63,316 nucleotides of DNA from a virus, in the IMG/VR virus record IMGVR_UViG_3300020474_000010, positions 1 to 63,316 of that record; one strand, 5' to 3'. The position numbers were made by a program, and so were the translations under genes. Below the pieces are notes generated by a model. It did not search any database, was not told where the DNA came from, and saw only the letters and a list, made by a program, of their open reading frames with translations. Positions 33,203 through 63,316 of this stretch are shown in pieces; position 1 is the first letter of the stretch, and every line of letters begins with the position of its first letter.

Positions 33203-33631
33203 CTACTCGTTGGGGATAGTGACTGGTTCTATAATACTATCTGTGATGTTATAATCATCATCATATTTGTGATCTAAACTAAACCCGTTCCATTCGCCAT
33301 GATCAAATATGTATAGAAACTCTTCACATGCCTTTGCGTTCTTAGCAAATGACCTGAAATCCTTGTCAAGTCGTGGTGCTTCACTGTCACCCCCGTAGTA
33401 ACTAGGTTGTGGATCTCTTTTCACATATTCTTGCTTCTCGAAATCAAATTCATTATCTGAGTAGCATGATGACATGTTGCCACCGTCTAGTAACTCAGCT
33501 ATCTTTTCATATGTGTTGTAGTGTTCTTTAAGAACTACACCCAACCACTCGGGATAACCGTCCCAATGATGATAAGCTGATAATACTGAGCCGTCTTGTA
33601 GTTTAAGACCAATGCGTGAACGTGTTCCCAT
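33203..33631 (-). CDS. conserved phage protein MGTRSRIGLKL-type, 142 aa
   Basis: The start MGTRSRIGLKLQDGSVLSAY followed by HHWDGYPEWLGVVL is a pattern I recall from many T4-like phage proteins of unknown function. Soluble, with no membrane segment. It is preceded by the 239-base stretch with a structured RNA-like segment, so its expression may be controlled at the RNA level (inference). Confidence 0.75.
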   Translation of the reverse strand: MGTRSRIGLKLQDGSVLSAYHHWDGYPEWLGVVLKEHYNTYEKIAELLDGGNMSSCYSDNEFDFEKQEYVKRDPQPSYYGGDSEAPRLDKDFRSFAKNAKACEEFLYIFDHGEWNGFSLDHKYDDDYNITDSIIEPVTIPNE

Positions 33632-33660
33632 GTTTGTTTAGTTTTGAGAGAATAGGGTGC

Positions 33661-33819
33661 GGAAAACAAAATGGATGGCGGTAGATTGGTGGCGATTTGC
33701 GTTATCTACCTTTAATAATAATGTGCTTGGTTATCTTCTGATTAACTGGACTAGTCTATTAATCAGTAGGGACTTTCACCTCTTCGGTCTTACACCTAAT
33801 TAACCATCATTTGTTTTCC
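33661..33819 (-). ncRNA. candidate structured leader RNA
   Basis: The 239 bases between 33632 and 33870 hold no gene. A 16-bp closing stem with two single-base bulges pairs 33661-33678 with 33804-33819. Inside are a 7-bp hairpin (GGTAGAT/ATCTACC, 33680-33710), an 8-bp hairpin (CTGATTAA/TTAATCAG, 33738-33766) whose loop holds self-complementary GACTAGTC, and the minus-strand segment GAAGAGGTGAAAGTCC. A TATATT -10-like element lies just upstream. Strand and class are inferred from gene direction; it matches no RNA family I can name with confidence. Confidence 0.5.
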
Positions 33820-33862
33820 CATTCTTAATATAACAGAATGGACCAGGGAATGCAACCCTGTG

Positions 33863-33886
33863 TGTGCCACTTAATAACGTGGCACA
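33863..33886 (-). repeat. stop-codon dyad, strongest copy
   Basis: TGTGCCAC/GTGGCACA, an 8-bp stem, with the TAA stop of the 96-residue gene in the loop; outer ACCC/GGGT arms extend it with a bulge. Likely a terminator-like or processing structure at the gene end. Confidence 0.65.
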
Positions 33887-34161
33887 GGGTTTGGGTTTCC
33901 ATTGTGATCCCGTGGTAATCTCAACGTATGTGTCCCCTCGGTGAAGTTATCAACCGTGAACTTAATTTCCTTGTATAAACCACGGATTGCATCCTTACCG
34001 AAATAATCATGTTCAATGGTATCATGACCAGTGCATGAAGATCCCCATGATGTAACATCTGAATCGATCCTCGCAAAGAGTCCACGAACCATGTAATTCA
34101 GTAAACCGAGTTCACGTTTAGAAACTCTGATGTTGATGAATTTAGGATTATTCTCGTCCAA
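33871..34161 (-). CDS. hypothetical protein, 96 aa, TTG start
   Basis: The start is TTG (34161) with a GGAGG eight bases before it, overlapping the upstream gene by 14 bases. The product, ENNPKFINIRVSKRELGLLN onward, contains KRELGLLNYMVRGLF and a polar middle. Function unknown. Its stop sits in the dyad loop at 33863-33886. Confidence 0.65.
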   Translation of the reverse strand: MDENNPKFINIRVSKRELGLLNYMVRGLFARIDSDVTSWGSSCTGHDTIEHDYFGKDAIRGLYKEIKFTVDNFTEGTHTLRLPRDHNGNPNPVPRY

Positions 34162-36033: not shown

Positions 36034-36363
36034 CTATTGAAATAGGTATCCCTTAGAACTGTCGAATTGGTGAGTGTGACCTCTGTCAGATACGTACCAT
36101 GTGAAGTCTTTCTGATATACCCCGCAGGTGAATGCATCACAAAACTCATTGATGAGTGCATTTAACCTGGACTTGGTAGTAACTGACTGCCACCCGCCGT
36201 CGAAGATGTGTAAGAAGTTGGATCCAACGGTTGCTATATGGTTCCCGTGTAGATAAACGTTTGAGTAATCGTTATCTTCATCATAACTTACACCTGTGTT
36301 TGCCTTAGCGAAGTTGATTTTGCTCTTCACCGCTGCATTCATTTGTGCTTCAATCTTGCGCAT
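36034..36363 (-). CDS. conserved small phage protein, 109 aa
   Basis: MRKIEAQMNAAVKSKINFAK, then VYLHGNHIATVGSNFLHIFD, then TTKSRLNALINEFC, a pattern recurring in phage proteins of unknown function. Own promoter at 36393-36398. Confidence 0.75.
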   Translation of the reverse strand: MRKIEAQMNAAVKSKINFAKANTGVSYDEDNDYSNVYLHGNHIATVGSNFLHIFDGGWQSVTTKSRLNALINEFCDAFTCGVYQKDFTWYVSDRGHTHQFDSSKGYLFQ

Positions 36364-62540: not shown

Positions 62541-63176
62541 TCAAACGTCAAGTTTGTAGATCACATGCATCTCGTTACGATTAAGTTGCATCATGTCTTT
62601 AATAGTGTAGTTAGAAAGAAACTCATTAACTGTTCGTAATGTGGAACTACTCTGATATCTTTCTGCATTAATATCAACTTCACAGTATATGGTTTTGACG
62701 TTTTTTAATTTATCTTTAAAACTACGAAGAACATTTATTTCTGCTCCTTGAACATCTATCCAGACTAGATCAATGGGTCGATCATCCAGATATTCATCCA
62801 TAGTTGTTGTAGGAACAAATGTTACACTATGATTAAAGTAAGGGAAGTTCATAGAAGATTCTCCACCATCACAGACGTAAAACGTGCTGTCTTCTGGTGT
62901 ATCAGTTACTAACTTCTCTACTAATGTAATTCTATCAGACTTCCTACTGTTATCTCTACATGTAGGTAGTAATACTGGATTACATTCAAATGCTGTAATA
63001 TGTGCGTTGGGGAATAGTCTGGTAAAAGTTAGAGACTCTTCACAATTATACGCACCTATTTCAAAAATATTCTTAAACTCATCAGGATTTTCTTTTTTAA
63101 GGTATCTCTCTAAAAAGAAAGTTTTATTCCAATCAATCCATTCAAGTTTATTATTAATAAGAACATGTTTTAGCAT
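62541..63176 (-). CDS. FkbM-family methyltransferase, 211 aa
   Basis: FEIGAYNCEESLTFTRLFPN, then AHITAFECNP (SAM-binding strands), then VPTTTMDEYL and DLVWIDVQGAEINVLRSF match the FkbM methyltransferase family. ATG at 63176 is chosen because a terminator and late promoter lie directly upstream, although the frame stays open to the window edge. FkbM enzymes often methylate sugars or small molecules; substrate unknown. Confidence 0.78.
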   Translation of the reverse strand: MLKHVLINNKLEWIDWNKTFFLERYLKKENPDEFKNIFEIGAYNCEESLTFTRLFPNAHITAFECNPVLLPTCRDNSRKSDRITLVEKLVTDTPEDSTFYVCDGGESSMNFPYFNHSVTFVPTTTMDEYLDDRPIDLVWIDVQGAEINVLRSFKDKLKNVKTIYCEVDINAERYQSSSTLRTVNEFLSNYTIKDMMQLNRNEMHVIYKLDV

Positions 63177-63181
63177 AGAAA

Positions 63182-63189
63182 TATTTATG
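63182..63189 (-). promoter_or_regulatory. late promoter CATAAATA
   Basis: CATAAATATTTCT runs directly into ATG 63176, only five bases after the core, so a transcript from it would begin at or next to the start codon. Confidence 0.6.
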
Positions 63190-63193
63190 GTAC

Positions 63194-63219
63194 AAAAAAA
63201 GAGAGGATTTCCTCTCTTT
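63194..63219 (-). terminator. strong intrinsic terminator
   Basis: 9-bp stem AAAGAGAGG/CCTCTCTTT (63198-63206 with 63211-63219), 4-base loop, T7 tract on the minus strand. It overlaps the TAA at 63218-63220. Confidence 0.88.
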
Positions 63220-63316
63220 ACCATAATATAAAAGGGGGAGGTTGGATTCCTGTATACCAACAAAGAACGGGCATTACTACAGTAGTAAAAACGTCCTTGC
63301 CTGAGACCCGACTGGT
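63218..63316 (-). CDS. C-terminal end of an upstream gene
   Basis: The frame is open from the right edge to TAA at 63218-63220: 32 residues ending YTGIQPPPFILW, with GKDVFTTVVMPVLCWYTG before it. The terminator begins at its stop codon, which supports it. Too short to name. Confidence 0.45.
   Translation of the reverse strand, partial: TSRVSGKDVFTTVVMPVLCWYTGIQPPPFILW

Follow-up and report, generated by a model that had tools for sequence, protein, structure and literature searches.

The window analysed here is a 63,316-nucleotide stretch of DNA from an uncultured cyanobacterial virus (IMG/VR record IMGVR_UViG_3300020474_000010, positions 1 to 63,316). A 239-base gap at 33632-33870 lies between two minus-strand open reading frames (33203-33631 and 33871-34161) and contains an element that the original prediction, made from the sequence, described as a structured RNA candidate in a gene-free gap directly before a 142-residue MGTRSRIG gene. 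The gap and the position upstream of that gene agree with this description, and all of the stems that it listed (including a 7-bp and an 8-bp hairpin) and its minus-strand motif GAGGTGAAAGTCC (33782-33770) are present. The features of the locus are:

33203-33631, minus strand: next downstream gene, 142 aa, MGTRSRIG, phrog_1987 (unknown function)
33661-33678, minus strand: closing stem P1, 3' side; the family conserves just its inner ~4 bp, and the outer pairs are window-specific
33677-33805, minus strand: conserved RNA, a three-way-junction core plus an optional arm; the core spans GGUUAAUUAGG to ACCGCC
33680-33710, minus strand: P3 hairpin GGUAGA/UCUACC (in DNA, 7-bp GGTAGAT/ATCTACC) with the conserved loop UAACGCAAAUCGCCACCAA
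33709-33722, minus strand: AUUAUUAUUAAAGG, nearly invariant, with the P2 3' side (33719-33716), J2/3 UUAAA (33715-33711) and the start of P3
33723-33794, minus strand: optional arm inserted in L2
33738-33766, minus strand: 8-bp arm hairpin CUGAUUAA/UUAAUCAG (stem 33738-33745/33759-33766) with loop GACUAGUC
33770-33782, minus strand: T-loop-like hairpin GG-UGAAAGU-CC in the arm (GAGGTGAAAGTCC)
33794-33798, minus strand: start of L2, UAGGU, nearly invariant
33799-33805, minus strand: GGU (P1 5' side) then UAAU (P2 5' side), paired in 13/13 distinct sequences, with two-sided changes at two P2 pairs
33804-33819, minus strand: closing stem P1, 5' side; the family conserves just its inner ~4 bp, and the outer pairs are window-specific
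33827-33832, minus strand: possible -10 element TATATT immediately before the long closing stem (from sequence inspection only)

Read on the minus strand, 33661-33819 folds more stably than each of 500 dinucleotide shuffles (z -4.5). Stability on the plus strand (z -3.5, 2/500 shuffles) comes as no surprise, since a stem read on the other strand is still a stem; over the whole gap (33632-33870), the z values are -2.95 for the minus strand versus -1.16 for the plus strand. The functional strand is the minus strand, in sense with the flanking genes. Covariance-model matches at the RNA extend over 33669-33814 (72.6 bits) and 33675-33749 (53.9 bits). A separate strong inverted repeat at 33854-33891 (AACCCTGTG...CCAC / GTGG...CACAGGGTT) runs across the stop codon that ends the gene preceding the RNA; it has no T-run.

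Members of the family occur in 16 records, including the window. A sensitive nucleotide search across phage genomes found intergenic matches in P-HM1, MED4-213, and P-RSM6, the first two being isolated phages of Prochlorococcus MED4, and pattern scans of IMG/VR added eleven records (L007, L008, L010, L011, L013, L014, L016, L017, L018, L021, and L022) and recovered P-HM1 again as L012. A relaxed scan yielded one real but diverged member, L149 (47.6 bits, E 2.5e-7); the other relaxed-pattern matches were mostly judged to be chance. The L149 contig carries exonuclease VIII, RecT, and SSB genes, and its exonuclease is closest to those of the cyanosiphoviruses S-CBS1 and KBS-S-2A, which suggests a cyanosiphovirus-like phage as its source. 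Each record searched holds one real copy, and no further member was found in ~55 other cyanophage records searched in full. Weak matches in MED4-213, G015, and P-SSM3 were judged to be chance on inspection, as were three viral matches to an exact search with GAGGTGAAAGTCCCTA, which lie in apparent coding sequence and lack the rest of the core. In 84,980 prokaryote species genomes, pattern scanning gave six matches, all of them lacking the remainder of the core. The RNA is absent from P-HM2, a close relative of P-HM1 with the same flanking genes. The family is thus sporadic, being found in a few marine cyanophages, once per genome, and always between genes.

The core shared by all members is a three-way junction made up of P1, P2, J2/3 (UUAAA), and P3, with the near-invariant loops UAGGU and UAAYGCAA-N2-CGCCACC. 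Among 13 distinct sequences, 208 of 208 pair cells hold standard pairs and six core pairs change on both sides, counts that lean towards the structure since it guided the alignment of the L149 row and of the trimmed arms; the changes in P2 and P3 can be read directly from the raw sequences. Covariation scores 0.335 versus 0.119 in shuffles, and slid registers come nowhere near this value. P2 is UAAU/AUUA in most sequences and UGAC/GUCA in L007 and L017, while L149 has UGAC with a bulged partner strand. In P3, both partners change at three pairs (sequence types CAG, AGA, CCG, and AAG), giving the variants GGUCAG/CUGACC, GGUAGA/UCUACC, GGUCCG/CGGACC, and GGU(U)AAG/CUUACC. P1 has the form xGGU/GCCx, its outer pair being G-C, A-U, or U-A, and its U-G pair, kept in 12 of the 13 sequences and replaced by U-A in the other (L007), favors an RNA. 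Compensatory change among cyanophage homologs was the test proposed for the predicted structured RNA, and it came out in favor of one. For the closing stem itself (33661-33678/33804-33819), the prediction stands for the inner P1 pairs, which covary, and fails beyond ~4 bp, where the pairing is unique to this contig. The L2 sequence UAGGU could also pair with the ACC of L3, both being almost invariant and hence lacking covariation. The suggestion that there is no functional RNA here, only a chance fold or a DNA element, could appeal to the shortness of the conserved helices and to the outer part of P1, which was weak outside the window in an earlier version with a longer P1; the compensatory changes in three core helices and the arm, the behavior of the U-G pair, and the conservation across unrelated gene contexts make it highly improbable.

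The arm inserted in L2 is present in the window, L010, L013, and L018, where its base is UGU/GCA; the arm of MED4-213 is of another kind, and P-HM1, P-RSM6, and the remaining members have none. Three pairs of its 8-bp hairpin change on both sides among the four sequences. The loop of this hairpin contains the palindrome GACTAGTC (33749-33756), from which a kissing dimer had been proposed, a proposal that is not supported, since the loop reads GACAAGUC in L010, L013, and L018 and is not self-complementary there. The second arm hairpin has the loop UGAAAGU, UGAGAGU, or UGUAAGU across the four members (GG-UGNRAGU-CC); it explains the GAGGTGAAAGTCC motif that had been singled out at the start, which is peripheral to the family. 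A likeness was considered between this hairpin and cobalamin or FMN riboswitches, as well as the RNase P motif GAGGAAAGUCC, and set aside, with no Rfam match. T-loops have been described as a U-A pair around a GNR triloop followed by two bulged 3' bases (PMC2258182), and the pattern UG[A/U][A/G]A-GU between GG and CC in all four members is, as far as sequence can tell, that of a putative T-loop. The arm hairpin (GG-U-GNR-A-GU-CC) thereby resembles the T-loop modules of the AdoCbl and FMN riboswitches (PMC2258182), although here it is a single peripheral module missing in most members, and the rest of those aptamers is absent.

None of the 4,227 Rfam 15 models matched the window region or L001-L006 at the gathering score, and E-value searches of four members (for the window up to E 10) gave unrelated weak matches or none. 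The models without a match include those of the glutamine riboswitch (glnA/Downstream-peptide) and the self-cleaving ribozymes (hammerhead, twister, and others). The compact junction fold with its near-invariant unpaired residues, and the sporadic, single-copy, phage-borne occurrence, would suit a new class of self-cleaving ribozyme, but all Rfam ribozyme families are without a match, and this reading is considered improbable. Three-way-junction riboswitch aptamers such as the purine type share the P1-P2-P3 layout and a possible L2-L3 contact (here GGU with ACC), but their junction residues differ, there is no covariance match, and covariation support for the contact is lacking here. The closest parallels in kind are manA (RF01745) and wcaG (RF01761), orphan riboswitch candidates from marine samples and cyanophages (PMC2864571). 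Like the present RNA, they are structured RNAs of marine cyanophages found upstream of varied genes and with ligand unknown; unlike it, they have folds of their own and precede recognizable metabolic genes, and their models gave neither a sequence nor a covariance match at this RNA. Among the open-licence papers that literature searches listed, no title or abstract describes such a motif, though a sequence motif is not searchable as text. The family and its fold therefore appear to be new; the kind, orphan structured RNAs of cyanophages, is already known from manA and wcaG.

The RNA occurs in ten gene contexts (the window; P-HM1/MED4-213/L010; P-RSM6; L007/L017; L008/L011; L013; L014/L016; L018; L021/L022; and L149), and in all of them it is intergenic and in sense with neighboring, co-directional genes. 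In six contexts (P-RSM6, L007, L008/L011, L013, L018, and L149), a start codon follows the end of the core at 22-30 nt; the distance is 45 nt in the window and at least 59 nt in the remaining contexts. In P-HM1, the RNA directly follows the upstream stop codon, 213 nt before the next start. Short distances of this kind are weak evidence alone because phage intergenic regions are compact. A gene of the phrog_1987 family also lies downstream of the RNA in P-HM1, MED4-213, and L010. The downstream genes otherwise differ between contexts, nearly all of them lacking a known function (one encodes a 2OG-Fe(II) oxygenase), and no downstream gene common to all members was found across the ten contexts. 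After the RNA, P-HM1 has a terminator-like hairpin (L004 1570-1594, 10 pairs then TTTGTTATAA), L021 has another (by inspection), and L014/L016 have a U-run. A possible promoter follows the P-HM1 hairpin, and the same sequence is found in MED4-213 and L010. The upstream gene is of the Kyano_Gp96 family (MRKIE...) in three otherwise different contexts (L008/L011, L014/L016, and L021/L022), and in the window the gene of this family stands elsewhere (36034-36363); 80 loci around the Kyano_Gp96 gene held no further member of the RNA family.

The varied downstream genes keep alive, besides the ribozyme reading, two others in which the RNA does not control the next gene. A trans-acting small RNA or decoy, processed from the polycistronic phage transcript and binding a host or phage protein or RNA, would make the gene position incidental. 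A single sporadic copy per record, spread over unrelated contexts and two kinds of cyanophage and sharing no downstream gene, is consistent with such an RNA, as is the P-HM1 copy, set between a stop codon and a terminator-like hairpin; a promoter of its own is missing in several contexts, however, and the RNA is always sense to the genes and often very near the next start codon, so that this explanation is judged unlikely, if reasonable. An element governing the processing, stability, or polarity of polycistronic phage transcripts, for example a folded barrier between genes or a site for a nuclease or for antitermination, accords with the constant placement between co-directional genes, but the near-invariant loops exceed the needs of a simple barrier and a single copy per genome is odd given the many operons, making such an element quite unlikely.

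No alternative pairing common to the members, coupling the core to a start site or a terminator, was found, and sequestration of the ribosome-binding site was dropped because no such pairing is common to them. The TGGTTA/TAACCA switch of the original prediction does not survive comparison, the TAACCA bases varying in the homologs (e.g., CATCCA). Single contexts do show possible alternative pairings: in L008/L011, GACCUAA in the 5' flank, ~20 nt upstream of the core, pairs perfectly with UUAGGUC of the core as an alternative to P2 (shuffle p ~0.002). As a family trait this flank-L2 pairing was rejected, being strong only in L008/L011, marginal in P-HM1, L007, and L149, and absent elsewhere.

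The best guess, to which we give a probability of roughly 45%, is a control element acting in cis, either riboswitch-like or protein-binding. The small size, the conserved loops, the removable arm, and the position in sense near start codons point this way, and the terminator-like hairpins after the RNA in P-HM1 and L021 are counted in its favor; aptamers typically combine a conserved core with a peripheral arm that can be lost. Counted against it are the varied downstream genes, mostly of unknown function, the lack of a member-wide alternative pairing, and the placement in P-HM1. As a control element, the RNA would lie within a phage transcript, flanked by two co-directional genes, and its folded core, placed beside the start region or, in certain members, immediately ahead of a terminator, would gate expression of the next gene during infection; we infer the presence in mRNA, the action in cis, and the existence of a ligand or protein partner. 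The aptamer-like conserved structure in a gene's 5' region that marks a riboswitch is matched in position and fold only. Of the role first proposed (a riboswitch, a ribozyme, or another RNA), the structured RNA has held up, and neither an Rfam match, a common downstream gene, nor a conserved switching partner was found to narrow it. A more speculative reading, less likely than not, sees the family as a new class of aptamer or ribozyme borne by phages: it would travel as a single-copy cassette between cyanomyoviruses and cyanosiphovirus-like phages and sense a host factor or an infection-state molecule, with a response modified by the optional T-loop domain. Cyanophages infect the most abundant photosynthesizers of the ocean and few of their regulatory RNAs are known; with a compact core supported by covariation, two members in MED4 phages, and P-HM2 as a natural RNA-free relative, the role of this RNA is directly testable.

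The window also carries a manA RNA (RF01745, 73.8 bits) on the minus strand at 63231-63316, cut by the window end. It lies directly upstream of a gene at 62541-63263, which we take to encode a predicted FkbM-like methyltransferase.
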